Positions 16,408 to 40,226 of a DNA stretch of 64,000 nucleotides are shown piece by piece. Source of the stretch: Chitinophaga vietnamensis (GTDB lineage: Bacteria; Bacteroidota; Bacteroidia; Chitinophagales; Chitinophagaceae); NCBI RefSeq assembly GCF_902167635.1, contig NZ_CABHMS010000004.1, positions 186,001 through 250,000 of the forward strand, read 5' to 3'. Numbering within the stretch: the first letter of the stretch is position 1; every line of letters begins with the position of its first letter. Under the pieces are notes generated by a model. The model was not told where the DNA came from and made no database searches. It saw only the letters and a program-made list of their open reading frames with translations. A program made the translations under genes and the position numbers.

Positions 16408-16499
16408 GCTACCGGGCTTTCGCCCCTACGGGGCGGAATATGGGTAGATGAAACGCGGGCTACCAATATTCCGCCCCGTAGGGGCGAAAGCCCGGTAGC
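16408..16499. repeat. Inverted pair of REP-like palindromes
   Basis: Two head-to-head copies of a unit GCTACCGGGCTTTCGCCCC-TAC-GGGGCGGAATAT, the second as reverse complement, are joined by about 10 bp (ATGAAACGCG region). The GCTACC clamp and CGCCCC/GGGGCG stem match the repeat arrays around the transposase at 36 kb. The pair resembles a BIME/REPIN unit. Mobilisation by that transposase is inferred. Confidence 0.8.
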
Positions 16500-22085: not shown

Positions 22086-23909
22086 ATGTCAGGTCATACA
22101 AACGGCAGGCAGCAACTGCCGGGAAATGTATCACGCAGAGTATTTTACCTGAGCGTGCAGGCATTTGTAAATGCCGTAGCAGTAGGCTTCGTAGCCAAAG
22201 TATTGGTTTGGTTGATCAGTCTTATTACCAACATTGCTTTTTACGGGAAATGGTCATTTGAAGAGAGCAGTCCTGCGGGCAACCATCTCGGCTGGATTGT
22301 TGTGCTGGTGCCCATTGCGGGCAGTCTTGCTGTAGGAGTGATGGCGCGTTTTGGCAGCAAGGCCATACGCGGGCATGGCATCCCGGAGGCGATGGAGAAT
22401 ATTATTTTGAATGAGAGCCGGATACCGCCGGCGATCACCTGGCTGAAACCTTTGTCTGCCGCCATTTCCATCGGTACGGGCGGCCCCTTCGGGGCAGAAG
22501 GTCCGATCATCGCCACGGGTGGCGCATTGGGATCATTCACCGGGCAGGTGATACATATTTCCGCTGCGGAGCGTAAAGTGCTGCTGGCGGCGGGCGCCTG
22601 CGCGGGTATGTCGGCCATCTTCGGTAGTCCGCTGGCGGCGGTATTGCTGGCGATAGAGCTGTTGCTATTTGAATTTTCGCCGCGTACAGTGATACCTGTG
22701 GCGATCGCCTGCATCACGGGCGCAGGCATGCATCTCCTGTTGTTCAGCAGCGAGCCGGTATTTGCGATGCCGGCCATCCCGGCGGTATCCACTCAGGCGC
22801 TGGCCATTTATGCAGGGATGGGCGCCCTGGTGGGCGTGGTGGCGGCATTGGTATCGCGCTCGGTATATTATGTAGAAGACCTATTCGAGAAGCTCCCTAT
22901 ACACTGGATGTGGTGGCCTGCGCTGGGCGCTGTAGTGGTGGGCATTACCGGTTATTTTGCTCCGCGTACGATGGGCGTGGGATATGATAATATCCGGTTT
23001 TTGCTGACTGGCAGCGCTCCGCTTGCCATCATTTGCTCGCTTTGCGTACTGAAATATATTTCCTGGGTATGGTCGCTGGGCAGCGGCACTTCCGGTGGAA
23101 CGCTGGCGCCTTTGTTCACCATCGGCGGCGCGCTGGGCGCCTTGCTGGGCACAGGCGTGCTGCTATTGTTCCCTGGCTGCGGCATTAACCTGGCTACCGC
23201 GGCGCTCATCGGGATGGCGGCGATGTTTGCCGGCGCTTCCCGCGCACTGCTCACCGCGATCGTATTTGCGCTGGAAACAACCGGACAACCAAATGGGCTG
23301 CTGCCCTTGATCGGCGCTTGCACCACCGCTTATTTTGTGTCTTTCTTTTTAATGAAAGGCAGTATCATGACCGAGAAGATCCGCCGCAGGGGCGTATCTG
23401 CACCGGAGGAATACATGCCGGACCTGATGCGGCTGATCACCGTTTCCGGTGTGGCTGTACAAGCGCCCCTCGTTATGGATTCGTATAGCCATGCCCGTGT
23501 GCAATTGCTGCTCGACAATACTGCTGATTACTTCCATCAATATCTCCCCGTTGTAAATGAAGCGCATGTGTTGGTAGGGTATCTCAACAGGGCACGTTTA
23601 ACCGATAGTGAAACGCCGGTAACAGATATCATCGAAAAGCGTGCGCCTTATGTGTATAACAGCGATGACATGAATACCGTTACGGAATTACTGGAGAAGT
23701 ATGCGCCGGATGTGCTGGCGGTGGTTGAAAACCCGCAACAGAAGCGGGTGACAGGCATCGTAAGTGCAGAGGGGATAGTGAAAGCATACACCAGTATGCG
23801 TAACAAGGATGCTAAATATCATTCTGCTTTTTATGGCAATACAAGGCTGCTCCGCCTGATGGCAAGAGGAAAGAGGCTGCTACCGGGCTATCGCCCCTAC
23901 GGGGCTTGA
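22086..23909 (+). CDS. ClC-family chloride channel/transporter with CBS-like tail
   Basis: Inner-membrane ClC protein of 607 aa. Membrane helices span about residues 20-420, with selectivity-filter motifs GHGIPE, GPFGAEGP (gating Glu retained) and GSGTSGGTLAPLF. The segment aligning with the CLC-ec1 proton Glu (IEE) reads IEL here, which hints at channel rather than exchanger behaviour, though this was aligned by eye only. A soluble CBS-like region (about 450-580) follows. The last ten codons (LLPGYRPYGA) are supplied by a REP-like element, so the native C-terminus was probably different. It is likely controlled by the divergent FNR-like regulator. Confidence 0.9.
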   Translation: MSGHTNGRQQLPGNVSRRVFYLSVQAFVNAVAVGFVAKVLVWLISLITNIAFYGKWSFEESSPAGNHLGWIVVLVPIAGSLAVGVMARFGSKAIRGHGIPEAMENIILNESRIPPAITWLKPLSAAISIGTGGPFGAEGPIIATGGALGSFTGQVIHISAAERKVLLAAGACAGMSAIFGSPLAAVLLAIELLLFEFSPRTVIPVAIACITGAGMHLLLFSSEPVFAMPAIPAVSTQALAIYAGMGALVGVVAALVSRSVYYVEDLFEKLPIHWMWWPALGAVVVGITGYFAPRTMGVGYDNIRFLLTGSAPLAIICSLCVLKYISWVWSLGSGTSGGTLAPLFTIGGALGALLGTGVLLLFPGCGINLATAALIGMAAMFAGASRALLTAIVFALETTGQPNGLLPLIGACTTAYFVSFFLMKGSIMTEKIRRRGVSAPEEYMPDLMRLITVSGVAVQAPLVMDSYSHARVQLLLDNTADYFHQYLPVVNEAHVLVGYLNRARLTDSETPVTDIIEKRAPYVYNSDDMNTVTELLEKYAPDVLAVVENPQQKRVTGIVSAEGIVKAYTSMRNKDAKYHSAFYGNTRLLRLMARGKRLLPGYRPYGA

Positions 23910-23964
23910 TCTCTAGCAAACGTCTTTGGAAACCTGTAGCCCGGTAGGGGCGATAGCCCGGTAG
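23879..23964. repeat. Inverted pair of REP-like palindromes
   Basis: GCTACCGGGCTATCGCCCC-TAC-GGGGCT (23879-23906) and its near-exact reverse complement (23936-23964) flank about 29 bp. The left copy encodes the C-terminal residues of the ClC protein, and its TGA stop follows immediately. It is the same element type as the pair at 16408, with one mismatch between the arms' central stems. Confidence 0.8.
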
Positions 23965-32645: not shown

Positions 32646-33542
32646 ATGCGCTGGAAACCATTCCTGTTAACATTTAAAACAGCATTCCGGGAGCTGATGG
32701 TCAACGATCCGTTGCGGCTTGCCGGTGCTACCGCTTTCTTTACCACCTTTGCATTACCAGCAATATTGGTGATCCTTATTCAGTTGCTGAAGATGATCTT
32801 TCGTATCCCGCATTCGGGCCGCCGCCTGCTGGAGCAGCTGGAAGGCGTGATCGGAAGGGAAACAACGGAAATGATCGTTGGCACGCTGCGCGCCATTCGT
32901 GGCATCGCACAAAATGAGATCATCACGATATTAGGATTCCTTTTCCTCTTGTTTGTGGCCACTACCTTGTTTAAAGTGATACGCAGTTCTCTGAATCAGC
33001 TGTGGGGTATCCGCATCCATGCACGCCAGCATTTCGGGCATATCATGTTGTCCAGGTTAAAAGGAGTACTGGTCATTTGTTTTATAGGCGTATTGTTTGT
33101 GTTAGATCTGGTGGCGAGTGCTGCGCAGGCCTATGTGGCAAAATTCATCGACCTGTATGTGCCGGCCATCGGCGGATATTTTAACAGCGCATTGAATTAT
33201 GGTATCTCTGTGGCCACGGTAACGTTGTGGTTTGTACTGGTATTTTACTTTTTGCCAGATGGACGACCTACCAGGAGAGTGCTGATCACCGGCGCTTTTG
33301 TAACAAGTATTTTGTTCAATATCGGAAAGCTTGTGTTGCGCTGGGCGCTGAACTACAGTAATATCAACAGTATCTACGGCGCTTCTGCTTCTACGGTGCT
33401 CTTGCTGTTGTTTGTATTCTATACGGCAATGATCTTTTATTTTGGCGCGGCATTTACGAAAGCCTGGGCCTATGCCAGTGGCAGCAGTATCAAGCCTTTG
33501 CCGCATGCTACCCGTTACAAGCTTACGGCTACTGATGAGTGA
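32646..33542 (+). CDS. YihY/BrkB-family inner-membrane protein
   Basis: Membrane protein of 298 aa with six predicted helices and the YihY/BrkB signature (RLAGATAFFTTFALPAIL near residue 22; LWGIRIHAR; NSIYGASASTVLLLLFVFY). Function of the family is unsettled; a lipid-transport or envelope role has been suggested. ATG 32646 is preferred to 32613. The patatin-like gene overlaps its stop by 4 nt, so the two are likely translated in a coupled manner. Confidence 0.87.
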   Translation: MRWKPFLLTFKTAFRELMVNDPLRLAGATAFFTTFALPAILVILIQLLKMIFRIPHSGRRLLEQLEGVIGRETTEMIVGTLRAIRGIAQNEIITILGFLFLLFVATTLFKVIRSSLNQLWGIRIHARQHFGHIMLSRLKGVLVICFIGVLFVLDLVASAAQAYVAKFIDLYVPAIGGYFNSALNYGISVATVTLWFVLVFYFLPDGRPTRRVLITGAFVTSILFNIGKLVLRWALNYSNINSIYGASASTVLLLLFVFYTAMIFYFGAAFTKAWAYASGSSIKPLPHATRYKLTATDE

Positions 33543-35599
33543 TCAATATCGTCAACAAAAAAATCGGTAAATTACTATCGTCATTGCAGTCCATATCCTG
33601 TGATGAAAGAGCCATGGTTACCAACGACTATCCTGAAACACCTTTTGATGATATCGCCTTTTCTCTTTCTGGTGGCGGATTCCGGGCGGCGGCGTACGGT
33701 CTCGGTGTGATCTCCCTGCTGCACTACATCCGCCTTGATGCGCATCATGATGCGGAGGAGCCTACCTTGCTTCACAAGGTGCGCTTTATGTCATCCGCCT
33801 CCGGCGGTACTTTCACGCTGTTGCTATATGCGGCAGCCTTGCGGAAAGGCATTTCTTTTGAGGCTTACTACCATCATCTCAATCAACAGATCAGTGGCGA
33901 AGTGCTGCTGCAGGAGGCGATCCGCATCCTGAAAGCAGATGATGAGTGGAAAGAGGCAGGCAAGACCCGCAACCTGATCAACGCATTTGCCAAAGCATAT
34001 CATCAGCAATTGTTGTCATTTATGGGAGAGGAAGATACCCGTATCCTGGCGTCGTTGATGGCTCCTGCCATGCAGGTCGCCACCAGCCAGCATTTGCAGG
34101 AGGTGTGTTTCAATGCCACCGATTTTTATTCGGGGCTGTCGTTCCGCTTCCAGGTGGGGGTCAGCGGCGAGGATACGCATCCCGGCCGTTTTGGCAATAA
34201 CAGCATCTCCCTGAATGTAAGCACGGAAGTGCCCGGATCATCGATGGAGATCATCAGCAAGATCAGGCTGGCAGATGTGTTGGCGGCTTCCTCCTGCTTC
34301 CCCATTGGATTTGAGCCGATCGTATTCCCGAATGATTTCCTGTATCCGTCGGGGCCCTCAGCTCCTGAACTGAAACAGGCACTTTACCTGCGCACTTATA
34401 GCTGGGATGATCGAAAGACGGCCGCTGAAAACGCCCTCAGCACGCGCGCGCCGAAAGAAAAGGCTTTTGTGGATAATGGCGTTTTCGGTTTGATGGATGG
34501 TGGTATCTGCGATAACCAGGGTATCTACAGCATGATACTGGCCAATGAACGCCGTATCCGCAATGATCATAAAGGTTTCGACCTGATGATGGTGAGCGAT
34601 GTGAGCAGCTATCTGATGACGCCCTTCAAAATCCCTGAAGTGCAAACAAACCAGCCGTGGATGAAGCAATCCCCTGATTATTATTTCCAGAAAGTGACGC
34701 ATTGGTGGTGGCTGGTGAAAGACCGCGGCAATTTTGTGCTTTCGGTAGTGATATTACTTGCCTTGCTTATGATGGTACCTGTATTCATAGAAGGGCCGCG
34801 TTTGTCGTCCATCATGCTGCTGGTGATCGGCCTTGGACAGCTGGCTGCGGCTATCTACGCCGGGCGTGTATTCCGCCGTTTCCGGGATAAAAATATATTG
34901 GTGGAAAAAGTGTTAGAGAAAAAAGACCTGTATGATGTGATCACCTCCCAATGGCCGCCGGAGAAAAATTTCACGAACAACATGGTGGGCAAAGTCACGG
35001 AATATATGCAGCATGTGCAGCTGGGGCCTATCCTGCAGATGCTCAACGCCCGCCTGCAATCCGCCATCAGCATGACCAGCGACGTTTTCCTGAAGCAGGT
35101 ACGCCGCCTGATCTACGATGAATTTTATGACGACCGGAGCTTCCGTTTCAAACGTATTTCCAGTCTGATCTATACCCTCACCTATACGAACGATAAACGC
35201 CGCCGCACACGTAAGCCCACCCTCGATTCCAGCGATACCACCCCCGAAAAAAAAGCGGCCTTCCTGAAAGAAGCTGCGCGGCATCTGGCGGTAACGCCTG
35301 CTTTACAATCCGCAGCAGAACTGGCCTACAGCACCGGCACCACCCTGTGGTTTGAAGTGAAGCCCGATGCGCCGCCCAACAAAGACAAGCGCCGCGCCGT
35401 AGTGGCCTGCGGGCAATTCACTACCTGCTTCCGCCTGCTCGAATATGCCTTGGCATTAAAATATACCCGCTATTTCGATTCCCTGGAAAGCCGCTACCAG
35501 AAAAGGATTGAGCTGATGATAGGTCAGCTGGCGCCGCTCGCGGATGCATTCAGGGAAGATCCGTATTATTTGTATGAGAAGATGGAGAAGGGGCAATAA
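33539..35599 (+). CDS. Patatin-like phospholipase, membrane-anchored
   Basis: Patatin-fold lipid hydrolase of up to 686 aa. Oxyanion-hole motif SGGGFRAA is at residues 44-51. The nucleophile motif reads SASGG (Ser88), a deviation from GxSxG, where the first Gly is Ser. The dyad Asp lies in MDGG (Asp320). Two membrane helices (about 390-440) split the catalytic part from a helical C-terminal region. The GTG start at 33539 overlaps the YihY/BrkB stop (GTGA). An alternative ATG is at 33614, which would still keep the whole catalytic domain. Coupling to a BrkB protein suggests an envelope-lipid role. Confidence 0.85.
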   Translation: MINIVNKKIGKLLSSLQSISCDERAMVTNDYPETPFDDIAFSLSGGGFRAAAYGLGVISLLHYIRLDAHHDAEEPTLLHKVRFMSSASGGTFTLLLYAAALRKGISFEAYYHHLNQQISGEVLLQEAIRILKADDEWKEAGKTRNLINAFAKAYHQQLLSFMGEEDTRILASLMAPAMQVATSQHLQEVCFNATDFYSGLSFRFQVGVSGEDTHPGRFGNNSISLNVSTEVPGSSMEIISKIRLADVLAASSCFPIGFEPIVFPNDFLYPSGPSAPELKQALYLRTYSWDDRKTAAENALSTRAPKEKAFVDNGVFGLMDGGICDNQGIYSMILANERRIRNDHKGFDLMMVSDVSSYLMTPFKIPEVQTNQPWMKQSPDYYFQKVTHWWWLVKDRGNFVLSVVILLALLMMVPVFIEGPRLSSIMLLVIGLGQLAAAIYAGRVFRRFRDKNILVEKVLEKKDLYDVITSQWPPEKNFTNNMVGKVTEYMQHVQLGPILQMLNARLQSAISMTSDVFLKQVRRLIYDEFYDDRSFRFKRISSLIYTLTYTNDKRRRTRKPTLDSSDTTPEKKAAFLKEAARHLAVTPALQSAAELAYSTGTTLWFEVKPDAPPNKDKRRAVVACGQFTTCFRLLEYALALKYTRYFDSLESRYQKRIELMIGQLAPLADAFREDPYYLYEKMEKGQ

Positions 35600-35608
35600 T
35601 ATAATTTT

Positions 35609-36115
35609 CATATCTGTCGCCCCATGGGGGCGGTATATTGGTAGCAAAAAATGTGATCTCCATATCTGTCGCCCCATGGGGGCGGTATATTGGTAGCAAA
35701 AAAATGTGATCTCCATATCTGTCGCCCCATGGGGGCGGTATATTGGTAGCAAAAAATGTGATCTCCATATCTGTCGCCCCATGGGGGCGGTATATTGGTA
35801 GCAAAAAAATGTGATCTCCATATCTGTCGCCCCATGGGGGCGTCATATTGGTAGCCAATAATGTGATCTCCATATCTGTCGCCTCATCGGGCGTCATATT
35901 GGTAGCCAATAATGTGATCTCCATATCTGTCGCCTCATCGGGCGGTATATTGGTAGCCAATAATGTGATCTCCATATCTGTCGCCCCATAGGGGCGATAT
36001 ATTGGTAGCCAATAATGTGATCTTCATATCTGTCGCCCCACAGGGGCGGTATATTGGTAGCCAATAATGTAATCTTCATATCTGTCGCCCCATAGGGGCG
36101 ATATCTTTCTATATT
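35609..36115. repeat. REP-like array A, ten units of 51-53 bp
   Basis: Ten units begin at 35609, 35661, 35714, 35766, 35819, 35871, 35922, 35973, 36025 and 36077. Each has CATATCTGTCGCCCC, then a 2-4 nt turn, GGGGCG, then TATATTGGTAGC and an A-rich spacer. Units 1-4 are almost identical and alternate between six and seven A, giving periods 52/53/52/53. Units 5-10 diverge towards the transposase gene. Read on the minus strand the unit is GCTACC-AATATA-CCGCCCC-turn-GGGGCG, the same orientation as that gene. The last unit touches its stop codon. Confidence 0.93.
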
Positions 36116-36567
36116 GGTTTAAAAATATATCGTTCATCAAATGCTATTTCAAATTTTTGGAGCATATCGACATATTCTTCAATGAAGGATTTTTTTGAAT
36201 GATGTTTTTCCTGATTCTTGATATATTTAATAACATTGTCTAAATGCGACCTGGAATAGGAAAATACACCGAAGCCTTCCTGCCATTCAAACTTTCCGCG
36301 TACTAAACGCCGACCATTAATCCATTTTGTAGAGCATGATTTTATTTGATTAACTAGTGTGGATATCGCTTCCGTGGGCCGCATCCCAATGAGAATATGT
36401 ACATGATCTGGCATACCGTTGATTATACACAGTTTATGACCACGATTTTGAATAGTTCCTGTAATAAACTTATATAATTCGTCTTTTAAAATTGGAGTGA
36501 TGAGTGATTGTCTGTTTTTGACCGCAAATACAATATGCAAATGGATCTGAGAATAGGTATTACTCAT
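36109..36567 (-). CDS. IS200/RAYT-like Y1 transposase
   Basis: Single-strand DNA transposase of the HUH Y1 family (IS200/IS605 or REP-associated type), 152 aa from ATG 36567; the frame extends to a TTG at 36591. The metal-binding motif is His55-Val-His57, and the catalytic Tyr is Tyr115 in KYIKNQ (Y-x3-Q with Gln119). It has no TnpB or IS-type partner and sits between two arrays of palindromic repeats that point away from it. This is the arrangement of REP-associated tyrosine transposases. Base composition is visibly more AT-rich than its neighbours, suggesting transfer. All key residues are intact, so it may be active. Confidence 0.9.
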   Translation of the reverse strand: MSNTYSQIHLHIVFAVKNRQSLITPILKDELYKFITGTIQNRGHKLCIINGMPDHVHILIGMRPTEAISTLVNQIKSCSTKWINGRRLVRGKFEWQEGFGVFSYSRSHLDNVIKYIKNQEKHHSKKSFIEEYVDMLQKFEIAFDERYIFKPI

Positions 36568-36610
36568 TTTGATTAGTTTTTGGGTTAACAAATTTTATTG
36601 TATTTAGATT

Positions 36611-36975
36611 ACGAACATTCCGCCCCGCTGGGGCGGAGTTGGTAGATTACATTTTTTGCTACCAATATGTCGCCCCGCTGGGGCGGAGTTGGTAGATTAC
36701 ATTTTTTGCTACCAATATTCCGCCCCGGTGGGGCGGAGTTGGTAGATTACATTTTTTGCTACCAATATTCCGCCCCGGTGGGGCGGAGTTTGTAGGTCGC
36801 ATTTTTTTTGCTACCAATATATCGCCCCGCTGGGGCGGAGTTTGTAGATCACATTTTTGCTACCGATATTCCGCCCCGCTGGGGCGATGTTTGTGGCTCG
36901 CATTTTTTTGCTACCAATATGTCGCCCCGCTGGGGCGATAGAATAGATATGAAGATCACATTGTTTACCAACATG
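36611..36975. repeat. REP-like array B, seven units of 49-52 bp
   Basis: Hairpins CGCCCC-GCT/GGT-GGGGCG begin at 36621, 36671, 36721, 36771, 36823, 36872 and 36923. The unit reads GCTACCAATAT, hairpin, GAGTTGGTAGATTACATT, T-run on the plus strand, so the array points opposite to array A and away from the transposase gene. The distal end (36935-36975) switches to a GATATGAAGATCACATT spacer like that of array A, then decays. Confidence 0.92.
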
Positions 36976-36992
36976 GTGCTTCGGCGATGACA

Positions 36993-39119
36993 CTATTCTG
37001 CTATAATATTAAACCCCGCATCCATCACTATCTTCCCTTCTTTCTCGCTACCATCGGGCATTTTAAGGCCTTTTATCTTCATGGTTTTGCCTTTGGTGAT
37101 GAGGTCGGATAATTGTTTATCGCTGAGTTTTTTGCCGAATAATTCAAAGGGTATTTTGAAACCGCAAATGTTGAAGTTGGCGCAGCCGTAGGCGGTGTGG
37201 CCTTTCTTCAGGGGATGGGCTTTGCATTTCGGGCATTGCAGGGTATCCGGCGCGGCAACTGGCGGCTTGGGAGCGCGTGGCTTGCGTTCTTTTTTGGGCG
37301 CTTCTTCTTTCGCTGGCGGCGGCGCTTCCGGCGCGATAGTGATCACTTTGTAGGCATTGGTTTTCACTTCCTGCGTGAGGTCCACCACCATTTGTATGAG
37401 CTCCTGTTTGAAGGTATCGAGGGTGTATTCCCCTTTTTCGATGAGGCGCAGTTTGCGTTCCCACTGGCCGGTAAGCTCGGGGCTTTTGAGTATTTCTGTT
37501 TGTATGGTATCGATGAGGTCTATACCGGTTTGAGTGGCGTAGATGTTCTTTTTCTTTTTGTCGATGTATTTTCTTTTGAACAATGTTTCGATAATATTGG
37601 CGCGGGTGGAGGGACGGCCGATGCCGTTATCTTTCAGCAGTTCGCGCATCTCTTCATCATCCACCTGCTTGCCGGCGGTTTCCATGGCACGGAGTAAAGT
37701 GGCTTCTGTAAAGGGTTTGGGCGGTGTGGTTTTACCCTGGTGCACGCGTGGTTCGTGTGGGCCGCTTTCTCCCACTATAAATACGGGAATGATCTTTTCT
37801 TCTTCTTCTTCGCCTTCTTTTTTAGCCGTCTGATCGTTGGCGTACACTTCTTTCCAGCCGGGCTCGATGATCTGTTTGCCGGTGGCTTTGAATTCCACCT
37901 GGCCTACCTTGCCGAGTACGGTGGTGTTGGATATCTTACACTCCGGATAGAAGGCGGCGATGAAGCGGCGTGTAACGAGATCGTATATACGTTTTTCTTC
38001 GAGCGGTAAGCCTTCCGGATATACGCCTGTGGGGATGATGGCGTGGTGATCGGTTACCTTTTTATCGTCGAAAACGGTTTTGAGCTTGGGGATGGGCTTC
38101 GCCAATATGGGCGCGGTGAGCGCGGCATAGGGCGTGAGGTCCTGCATGATGCCGGCGATCTTGGGGTGCAGGTCTTCCGAGAGGTAGGTGGTATCTACTC
38201 TGGGGTAGGTGACCAGTTTCTTCTCGTAGAGGTTCTGGATATATTTAAGTGTATCGTCGGCGGAGAAGGCGTAGCGTTTGTTGGCGTCTACCTGCAGGGC
38301 GGTGAGGTCGTACAGGCGCGGGTTTCCTTCTTTGCCTTCTTTTTTCTCGAAGGAGGTGATTTCGAAGAGATGTTCTTTGAGATAGGCGAGGCCTTTGTTG
38401 GCCTTCTCTATATTTTTGAGCCGCTCGATGGTGGCGGTAAATTCAGTTTCGCGGTAGATGGTTTTGAGTTCCCAGTATTCCTCTATCACAAATGCGTTGA
38501 TCTCTTTCTGGCGGGCTACGATCATGGCGAGGGTAGGGGTTTGTACGCGTCCGATGGAGAGCACTACTTTTCCTACGGCAAATTTTTTAGTGAAGAGACG
38601 GGTAGCGTTCATGCCAAGGAGCCAGTCGCCGATGGCGCGGGCGCTGCCGGCGGCGTACAGGTTATTGTACTGGTCTGCCTCTTTGAGATGCTGGAAACCA
38701 TTGCGGATGGCTTCTTCCGTGAGGGAGGATATCCACAGTCTTTTTACCGGGGCGGTGCATTTTGCTTTGAGCAGCACCCAGCGTTGTATCAGTTCGCCTT
38801 CCTGGCCGGCATCGCCGCAGTTGATCACTTCCTCACATTGTTGTACCAGCTGTTCAATAACTTTGAACTGCTTTTCCACGCCATTATTTTCTATGAGTTT
38901 GATACCGAAGCTGGGCGGGATCATGGGGAGGTCTTCCAGCCGCCAGTATTTCCATTGTTCGTAGTAATCGTGCGGTTCTTTGAGGGTACAAAAATGCCCG
39001 AAGGTCCAGGTTACCTGGTAGCCATTACCTTCGTAATAGCCGTCCTTACGTTGTTTTGCTCCTATCACTGTTGCAATATCCCTTGCCACGCTGGGTTTTT
39101 CTGCAATGCAAACCCTCAT
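36993..39119 (-). CDS. topB: DNA topoisomerase III (type IA)
   Basis: Type IA topoisomerase of 708 aa that cuts and passes single strands, resolving recombination and replication intermediates. The Toprim domain has Glu7 in AEKPS and DAGQEGE (103-109). The catalytic Tyr305 is in VTYPRVDTTYL. QTPTLAMI (193-200) is typical. The C-terminus holds a basic, Pro/Lys-rich linker and one four-Cys zinc ribbon (CPKC...C...C). No conjugation genes are nearby, so it need not belong to a mobile element. An inverted repeat lies just upstream. Confidence 0.92.
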   Translation of the reverse strand: MRVCIAEKPSVARDIATVIGAKQRKDGYYEGNGYQVTWTFGHFCTLKEPHDYYEQWKYWRLEDLPMIPPSFGIKLIENNGVEKQFKVIEQLVQQCEEVINCGDAGQEGELIQRWVLLKAKCTAPVKRLWISSLTEEAIRNGFQHLKEADQYNNLYAAGSARAIGDWLLGMNATRLFTKKFAVGKVVLSIGRVQTPTLAMIVARQKEINAFVIEEYWELKTIYRETEFTATIERLKNIEKANKGLAYLKEHLFEITSFEKKEGKEGNPRLYDLTALQVDANKRYAFSADDTLKYIQNLYEKKLVTYPRVDTTYLSEDLHPKIAGIMQDLTPYAALTAPILAKPIPKLKTVFDDKKVTDHHAIIPTGVYPEGLPLEEKRIYDLVTRRFIAAFYPECKISNTTVLGKVGQVEFKATGKQIIEPGWKEVYANDQTAKKEGEEEEEKIIPVFIVGESGPHEPRVHQGKTTPPKPFTEATLLRAMETAGKQVDDEEMRELLKDNGIGRPSTRANIIETLFKRKYIDKKKKNIYATQTGIDLIDTIQTEILKSPELTGQWERKLRLIEKGEYTLDTFKQELIQMVVDLTQEVKTNAYKVITIAPEAPPPAKEEAPKKERKPRAPKPPVAAPDTLQCPKCKAHPLKKGHTAYGCANFNICGFKIPFELFGKKLSDKQLSDLITKGKTMKIKGLKMPDGSEKEGKIVMDAGFNIIAE

Positions 39120-39120
39120 T

Positions 39121-39212
39121 ATTTGATTATTTAGTTATTTGGTTATTTATTTATTCATTTATTTCTGCGGTAGCAAAATAAATAAATAACCAAATATCCA
39201 AATGACTAAATA
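39121..39212. repeat. Imperfect inverted repeat of TTATTTGG steps
   Basis: The left arm ATTTAGTTATTTGGTTATTT pairs with a right arm of AAATAACCAAAT-type steps ending GACTAAAT, with a 30-nt or so centre. The right arm contains the stop codon of the CheY-like gene on the minus strand. Same sequence class as 7550. Confidence 0.65.
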
Positions 39213-39616
39213 TGAAAGAGATGTTTCCATTTATTCTCCAGGATATTCCGGATACCATCGCAGAGATCGGTGAAGGAGCTGGGTTTGGTCATGAAAAACT
39301 GGGCGCCGAGTTTTTGCGCGTCGGAGAAATCTTCCCGGAGGGCAGAGGTAGATAACATCACGATCTGGGTGAGTTTCAGGTGCGCCATTTTTTTGAGTGC
39401 GGTAAGGCACTCTTTGCCGTTCATTACCGGCATGTTCAGATCCAGGAATATGTAGTCAGGTACAGTGATCTTTTTTTCTTTCAACAGGCGGACGGCTTCT
39501 ACGCCGCTTTCGCAGGTGAGCGCTACACTGCCTGGTGAGACTTCACGGATAGCATCACAAAAAAATTGTCTGTCATCTGCATCGTCGTCGATCATTAAGA
39601 TAGTTTGTGCTTGCAT
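39206..39616 (-). CDS. Single-domain CheY-like response regulator
   Basis: Stand-alone receiver of 136 aa: DDDADD acidic pocket (residues 10-15), FLDLNMPVMNG with phospho-Asp, LST, and TKPSSF with the conserved Lys. It has no output domain, so it acts by protein interaction or in a phosphorelay. The partner kinase is not adjacent. Its stop codon is in the arm of an inverted repeat. Confidence 0.88.
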   Translation of the reverse strand: MQAQTILMIDDDADDRQFFCDAIREVSPGSVALTCESGVEAVRLLKEKKITVPDYIFLDLNMPVMNGKECLTALKKMAHLKLTQIVMLSTSALREDFSDAQKLGAQFFMTKPSSFTDLCDGIRNILENKWKHLFHI

Positions 39617-39785
39617 AATGGTTACATTTATAGGTGCAGATAATAGGCGGTTCCCCTTGTTTGTCTTAGTTCCTCTGATACGGTCCGTTAAAGATAATCA
39701 AATGATCATTAATAACACATTAATTTATATCGTATGTGGGAACATCTAATAATGCCATATGGGAAGGAATGACAACTATCATGTT

Positions 39786-39813
39786 TTGCAAAAGTATTTT
39801 ATCACTACCTTTG
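39786..39813 (+). promoter_or_regulatory. Predicted promoter of the copper-related operon
   Basis: TTG (39786-39788) and TACCTTTG (39806-39813) with 17 nt between them match the Bacteroidota -33/-7 consensus. The start codon of the first operon gene is 27 nt after the -7 box. Confidence 0.6.
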
Positions 39814-39839
39814 CGCGGAAACACTGATACTATAGCAAA

Positions 39840-40226
39840 ATGCGGAAACACCTGATCACGGCCTTCTTCTTGCTGCTCTGGCTTTGCCAGCTGTCGGGCC
39901 GTTACCTGGTGATGCTCGAATTTTACATCAATCAATCCTATGTTGCGGCCAATCTCTGCGAAAACCGCGATAAACCACAACTGCATTGTAACGGTAAATG
40001 TCACCTGAGAAAGCAATTGAGCGAAGAAGAAAAGCGTAACCAGGAAAGCCCGGAACGCCGCGCAGAAAATAAGAGCGAAATATTCTACGCTTCCTGCTTT
40101 ATCGATCATCTCTTTCAACCCGCACAATTTGAAACATCAAATACTTATACTATTCCCAATAATGTTGGAAGCCCTGTAGATCAACCCCAGTCTATATTCC
40201 ATCCTCCCGGCATCACCTGCTGCTAA
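39840..40226 (+). CDS. Small Cys/His-rich envelope protein (CHLRKQ type)
   Basis: Unnamed family seen in Bacteroidota, 128 aa. A hydrophobic N-terminal segment (residues 4-18) probably anchors or exports it. The signature NLCENRDKPQLHCNGKCHL carries Cys40, Cys50, Cys54 and His55, and the protein ends in Cys-Cys. These suit a soft metal such as copper. It leads the operon with MbnP, a di-heme peroxidase-like protein and a CDICGC outer-membrane protein. The metal role is inferred from motif and context. Confidence 0.72.
   Translation: MRKHLITAFFLLLWLCQLSGRYLVMLEFYINQSYVAANLCENRDKPQLHCNGKCHLRKQLSEEEKRNQESPERRAENKSEIFYASCFIDHLFQPAQFETSNTYTIPNNVGSPVDQPQSIFHPPGITCC

Follow-up and report, generated by a model that had tools for sequence, protein, structure and literature searches.

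Within a 64,000-nt stretch of the Chitinophaga vietnamensis genome (contig NZ_CABHMS010000004.1, positions 186,001 to 250,000; hereafter the window), a gene for a Y1 (HUH) transposase is enclosed by two opposed arrays of short hairpin units. We consider it probable that this locus is the home of a system resembling repetitive extragenic palindromes (REPs) and their hairpin-forming doublets (REPINs), and that its enzyme is an IS200-type Y1 transposase bearing the subclass 1.2 signature. The unit hairpin, CGCCCCnnnGGGGCG, was found in 221 exact copies in this 6.3-Mb genome (G000), with 0 copies of a mirrored control, and the window transposase is the sole Y1_Tnp found there. Units of the kinds that flank such genes are dispersed in several genomes, and we infer that the dispersal is the work of the transposase, as the hairpins beside the genes of its close relatives share a tag and a geometry seldom met in DNA farther away.

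The transposase and its flanking arrays

The 152-aa protein retains the catalytic residues H55-V-H57 and Y115 and matched Pfam Y1_Tnp with 99.8 bits (cut-off 23), which bears out the intact enzyme described in an earlier note on this sequence. It also passed the NCBI IS200 model (74.8 bits, cut-off 55), and its nearest structures were IS608 and ISDra2 by profile and IS200/IS605 by the fold of the predicted model (pLDDT 91.4). In Quentin 2018 (PMC6006769), subclass 1.2 is characterized by Y---Q--HH, DH[VI]H, WQ and a length of about 148 aa; the window protein carries Y115IKNQEKHH, DHVH and WQ within its 152 aa. The earlier note had spoken of REP-associated tyrosine transposases (RAYTs), a naming that had to be given up in the family sense: class 2 membership (RAYT/TnpAREP) was rejected, as the protein has Y...Q..HH and not Y..NP and scored 31.1 bits in NCBIfam NF047646, below the cut-off of 80. 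In a protein set chosen by similarity, Y..NP occurred in 0/116 and Y...Q..HH in 114/116 sequences, and all 46 aligned members matched NF047646 at E ≤ 0.001. The GC content of the gene is 33.8% compared with 51.0% for the window, which hints at a foreign origin but is no proof of it.

Ten units of about 50 bp in array A and seven in array B were recovered as originally described, with spacings of 51–53 and 49–52 nt, respectively. The order of CTACC and hairpin, which lies on the gene strand in array A and on the other strand in array B, agrees with the proposed arrangement in which units point outward on both sides of the gene. The hairpin CGCCCC/GGGGCG inside a GCTACC/GGTAG clamp, previously ascribed to every unit, holds for most stems, but two of the ten array A stems are altered (CGCCCGATGAGGCG) and the clamp is regular only in array B, where the 3′ GGTAG arm is present in several units and only the first ones show the two-armed form clearly. 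In array A, read on the minus strand, GCTACCAATAT precedes the hairpin, but ACAGATATGGAGATCAC or a similar sequence follows it and the GGTAG arm is missing. A spacer end like GATYACATTTTTTGCTACC recurs in several units of the two arrays. Altogether, the window contains 17 exact CGCCCCnnnGGGGCG hairpins (8 in array A, 7 in array B and 2 at 16421 and 16472) and 2 more with one mismatch, that is, 19 compared with 0.31 expected from shuffled sequences. Upon folding, one array B unit gave a z of −3.3 and two units gave −8.9.

Table 1. Coordinates of the transposase gene and of repeat features in the window.
Feature	Position	Strand	Description
Y1 (HUH) transposase gene	36109..36567	minus	152 aa from ATG; Y115-IKN-Q-EK-HH
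Array A	35609..36108	minus	ten head-to-tail units, GCTACCAATAT-n2-hairpin-spacer on the minus strand, period 51-53; 3′ of the gene
Array B	36610..36945	plus	seven head-to-tail units, GCTACCAATAT-n2-CGCCCC-n3-GGGGCG, period 49-52; 5′ of the gene
92-bp inverted pair (REPIN)	16408..16499		GCTACCGGGCTTT-hairpin-GAATATGGGTAG-spacer-CTACCAATATTC-hairpin-AAAGCCCGGTAGC
Second inverted pair, degenerate	23880..23964		CTACCGGGCTATCGCCCC bounds both strands

The genes next to the locus encode a patatin-like protein and topoisomerase III. A CRISPR-like array was rejected in view of these neighbours and of spacers that repeat within an array, with no search aimed at cas genes, and a known RNA family was rejected after 0 Rfam matches at the gathering score in 33000–40000. 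The last codons of the transposase gene (AAA CCA ATA TAG, window 36101–36120) resemble the unit tag ACCAATAT; several relatives also end in K-P-I, and the resemblance may thus be a coincidence.

Dispersed units in the genome and beside related genes

Copies were read in context at 15 places taken from the hairpin listing (a part of it), in 100 kb of contig C4 and in the window. In these places they appeared as single units, inverted neighbours and head-to-tail arrays, several of which end in one or two reversed units; with up to 13 units elsewhere in the genome, arrays are not special to the transposase gene. Twelve inverted neighbours were called, spaced 49–54 nt apart in nine cases and 36, 37 and 74 nt in the others. 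An outer-arm tag, CTACCGGGCTNTCGCCCC, was found with at most two mismatches in 74 occurrences at 42 places (control 0), and dispersed copies are often inverted pairs with the outer tags as borders. Folding of the pair at 16408–16499 yielded a single long single-strand hairpin (−52 kcal/mol, z −13.7). Bertels and Rainey are said to have described REPINs in 2011 as inverted pairs that fold into one long hairpin and lie dispersed between genes. Like these and like bacterial interspersed mosaic elements (BIMEs), two inverted units here form one long hairpin and are dispersed in the genome; enzyme class, tag type and tandem growth set them apart from REPINs. Some outer tags (L214, L217, L221, L238, L242) are preceded by one more palindrome, with the sequence CCCCGGGTTTCACCCGGG or nearly so, which suggests a longer composite element.

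Intergenic hairpins of this abundance could be ordinary functional elements under selection, such as terminators, mRNA stabilisers or gyrase or chromosome sites, with the transposase lying there by chance or as a user of the sites. Their gene context would suit this explanation, since 17 of the 20 places examined lie between open reading frames (ORFs) called by a simple caller (10 tandem, 4 convergent and 3 divergent, with some ORF ends overlapping repeats). The remaining three lie inside an ORF: in two cases the frame runs across the array itself, and in the third the unit is near the called start of a long ORF that may begin elsewhere. Nevertheless, the population is restricted to one species, and, as described below, a single tag geometry recurs beside relatives with different stems far above the distal control, which a chance neighbourhood does not explain; we hold this alternative to be very unlikely.

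To describe the surroundings of related genes, 282 relatives of the transposase were confirmed and the best 80 used, mostly from Bacteroidota together with a few metagenome bins labelled otherwise. Hairpins within 700 bp of the gene were counted against a larger distal control, 1.5–3.5 kb away, with tag-count shuffles that keep single-base content only. CTACC-tagged hairpins numbered 116 near the gene (1.095/kb, 40 loci) and 10 in distal DNA (0.037/kb, 5 loci), and TTACC-tagged ones 49 (0.463/kb) and 7 (0.026/kb); for other tags, which had few matches, the density near the gene was about 1–7 times the distal one, for example GGTAG with 10 and 10 (0.094 and 0.037/kb). The linker between tag and stem was 7 or 8 nt in 111 of the 116 CTACC hairpins. 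At least one hairpin with a relaxed tag occurred within 700 bp in 64/80 loci, compared with 16/80 in the distal control. Therefore, the view that the repeats belong with the transposase was sustained, absence of arrays around orthologues being what the earlier note had named as evidence to the contrary.

Because the tag had been drawn beforehand from six of the 80 loci and from L098–L133, the counts were repeated on the 74 loci without the six. Species may be shared between L017–L096 and L098–L133 plus L256–L284. With a linker of 7–8 nt, YTACC hairpins again prevailed near the gene (130 in 39 loci versus 10 in 6; 33-fold), as did the relaxed tag [CT]TA[CT][CA] (215 in 60 loci versus 24 in 16; 23-fold), compared with a 3.6-fold enrichment for any five-base tag and with 0 near and 2 distal matches for the reversed tag GGTA[GA] at 7–8 nt. 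In DNA close to the gene, but not in distal DNA, four-bp pairing after YTACC had its peak where the stem was expected, and YTACCRAYAT sites chosen with no demand for a hairpin had one of at least 4 bp in place in 58/63 near and 4/11 distal cases. The relatives' units consist of a 5′ YTACC tag, a 7–8 nt linker (consensus RATAT), a GC-rich stem and a loop of 3–4 nt, and the stems differ between loci. The nearest unit pointed outward in 39/49 cases downstream and 30/35 upstream (114 loci, after two short ones were dropped), and in 28/35 and 23/25 cases, respectively, at the 74 uninspected loci. As a class control, relaxed-tag hairpins were found at 16/23 subclass 1.2 loci, many of them genes already met in the family homologue search, versus 0/4 class 1.1-like loci. 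Two further unclassified loci had one (L257) and two (L275) such hairpins, and the L257 gene has 8 equal-scoring copies.

Of 98 pairs of same-strand neighbours within 160 nt of each other, 60 were spaced by 40–59 nt, in 43/116 loci, and the view that long arrays of this kind are exceptional in Bacteroidota found no support. Spacers compared over 27 loci had a likeness of 0.80 when taken from the same locus and of 0.40 when taken from different ones (shuffled, 0.39), as would result from local duplication. Together with the IS200 model match and the nearest structures given above, this could speak for a simple IS200/IS605 insertion sequence (IS) in which slippage during replication made local copies of the end hairpins, with the dispersed copies being old decayed ends. 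However, the 40–59 nt spacing is kept at loci with unrelated spacers, a regularity that free slippage would not produce, inverted pairs with outer tags as borders are frequent among the dispersed copies, and one gene copy stands against 221 hairpins; several near-identical gene-bearing copies, a usual though not obligatory trait of an IS, were not found. Elsewhere in the family, IS200-like genes occur in sets of equal-scoring transposase matches, 8 in G189 and 10 in G116, which by copy number are ordinary insertion sequences. A simple IS is therefore an unlikely account of the locus.

Occurrence across the genus and family

The exact CGCCCCnnnGGGGCG hairpin was sought in 79 genomes of the genus; outside this genome it was absent from 73, present once in each of four, and present nine times in one (G250), while the mirrored control occurred once in each of seven genomes. 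The nine copies in G250, a congener with no detected transposase homologue, are scattered and have mixed loops, five of them GAA or TTC. Among 194 other genomes of the family, 18 had 1–6 copies, and in another genus of the family six identical CGCCCCATCGGGGCG hairpins lie within about 11 kb (G021:C1:1864922-1876075). A transposase homologue was detected in 13/79 genus genomes including this one, the other twelve at 47–55% identity, and in 107/195 family genomes. Since none of the other genus genomes, with or without a homologue, shows an expansion of this type, the distribution reflects species restriction more than gene dependence.

A family-level pattern, CTACCRATATN{1,4}YCCN{3,5}GGR, which covers one tag type and counts some overlapping matches twice, gave at least 5 matches in 11/195 genomes (313 in this one and 5–42 in the others; control at most 3). 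All 11 have a homologue, compared with 107/195 overall (Fisher p 0.0012). Within the genus, a second unit type, CTACAAACA-n3/4-GRCTCCTNRCGGAG (pattern CTACAAACAN{3,4}GRCTCCTNRCGGAG), was first met beside homologues in four genomes. It occurs in 6–100 copies in 9/79 genomes (G209, G210, G211, G215, G225, G247, G259, G262 and G263), is absent from 70, and had 0 matches in the controls; its association with a homologue gave p 0.0049. Both patterns were drawn from the flanks of some genomes later counted, and once these are removed the genome-level association is weak; the counts do not show that the units depend on the gene. Equal occurrence of the repeats in genomes lacking the transposase, which the earlier note had named as contrary evidence, was not seen for the CGCCCCnnnGGGGCG type (221 copies here versus 0–9 in 78 congeners), but the second type is present in four genomes with no detectable homologue.

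These results bear on whether some other enzyme moves the units, the subclass 1.2 gene being a passenger among them. Four of the nine second-type genomes have no detectable homologue, and the genome-level association is weak as just described, both of which would be expected from a passenger. On the other hand, a search confined to the Y1_Tnp family among HUH enzymes turned up no second member in the genome, the geometry of the tag accompanies the gene at many loci, and the gene-less congeners have lower copy numbers (6–23 in four versus 10–100 in five gene-bearing ones, one-sided p 0.056). We regard a different mover as highly improbable; loss of the gene with leftover repeats would fit the four gene-less genomes.

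A number of results weigh against a REP-like system run by the window transposase. With the six pattern-defining genomes left out, the family association fell to 5/5 versus 101/189 (p 0.062), one of the five (G047) has a homologue of only 36% identity, and most of the matches listed for these five are on different contigs from the homologues listed. Fewer than 5 pattern matches, for a pattern that covers one tag type, were found in 96/107 gene-bearing family genomes. For the second type, homologues were missing from G210, G225, G247 and G262, the p value rose to 0.48 without the four pattern-defining genomes, and 8/13 gene-bearing genus genomes lack the units; all association statistics are uncorrected for relatedness. 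At the 80 loci, neither a CTACC nor a TTACC hairpin lay within 700 bp in 30, and CAACC (18 near, 11 distal) and CTCAC (9 and 1) were also denser near the gene. No empty site was found: in 29 congener loci the patatin gene did not lie within 1.5 kb downstream of topB. A tree gave no proof of horizontal transfer; the rows nearest the window protein came from other genera and families, but a single clade with 7 congener homologues was not rejected (p-AU 0.143). Finally, no unit movement was seen, and the first tag base did not covary clearly with any linker position, contrary to the prediction of a guide model.

Proposed mechanism and relation to known systems

IS608 TnpA binds a hairpin and cuts 3′ of TTAC with a preference for C next, and TTAC|C received about 70% of the insertions in one set obtained in vivo (PMC5934647). 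By analogy, the window enzyme may bind the single-stranded hairpin and nick at the tag, probably at YTAC|C, much as the left end of IS608 is cut by its TnpA; in the simplest case this IS608-like cut would fall on the strand that has the tag before the hairpin. A Y115–DNA link would then form and the unit be moved or copied, which amounts to proposing that the enzyme acts in trans, as RAYTs do. Arrays might lengthen in tandem through cuts at consecutive YTAC|C tags, spaced by about 50 nt, or through slippage during replication; as successive array tags lie one unit apart, we conjecture that a cut at each of two tags would release precisely one unit.

A broader possibility, which we put forward tentatively and do not favour strongly, is a second origin of REP systems, in this case from a class 1 transposase of the IS200 type. 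Subclass 1.2 would then be a widespread Bacteroidota REP family that keeps the left-end logic of IS608 (YTAC|C cut 5′ of the hairpin) rather than the GTAG guide of RAYTs, and moved units would insert beside older ones, building arrays in steps of about 50 nt whatever the spacer. In such a history each unit carries its own target tetranucleotide, so that a moved unit could insert beside an older one and give head-to-tail arrays.

For an orphan subclass that was reported in 2018 to have neither REPs nor IS properties, the present locus offers a likely role and substrate. It would provide a second, differently built REP system whose tag, linker and stem can be compared with the biochemistry of IS608 and RAYTs, makes the route from an insertion-sequence enzyme to a genome-resident REP mover directly testable, and could serve as an outgroup for studies of REPIN populations. 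In Quentin 2018, subclass 1.2 is given as REP "no", generally without the terminal secondary structures of IS200 and without IS properties. The published REP search demanded GT[AG]G at 0–2 nt from the stem, and repeats of subclass 1.2 could thus have been missed. In searches of an open-access collection that lacks most subscription papers, no title or abstract tied subclass 1.2 or Bacteroidota IS200-type enzymes to such repeats; the comparison literature also included Di Nocera 2013 (PMC3733652).

Compared with insertion sequences, the tag YTAC|C has the form of the left cleavage site of IS608, with the hairpin 3′ of the site (PMC5934647). Unlike IS608 and ISDra2 in the same source, the gene has patatin-like and topoisomerase III neighbours and not tnpB; unlike IS200/IS605, one gene copy is flanked by 10 + 7 opposed units and not by one left and one right subterminal end; and, unlike IS608, the units here show no covariation of guide and cleavage site. 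The enzyme resembles subclass 1.2 of Quentin 2018 in its signature, length of about 150 aa, occurrence in Bacteroidetes and low copy number, but differs from the published subclass in that REP-like units flank most loci examined here. As in REP/RAYT systems (Nunvar 2010, PMC2817692; NAR 2021, PMC8266576; PMC6006769), a Y1 gene lies amid inverted, genome-abundant hairpin repeats with inverted pairs and species-specific stems, whereas the tag here is CTACC/YTACC at 7–8 nt 5′ of the stem and that of RAYTs is GT[AG]G at 0–2 nt 5′ of the hairpin foot.
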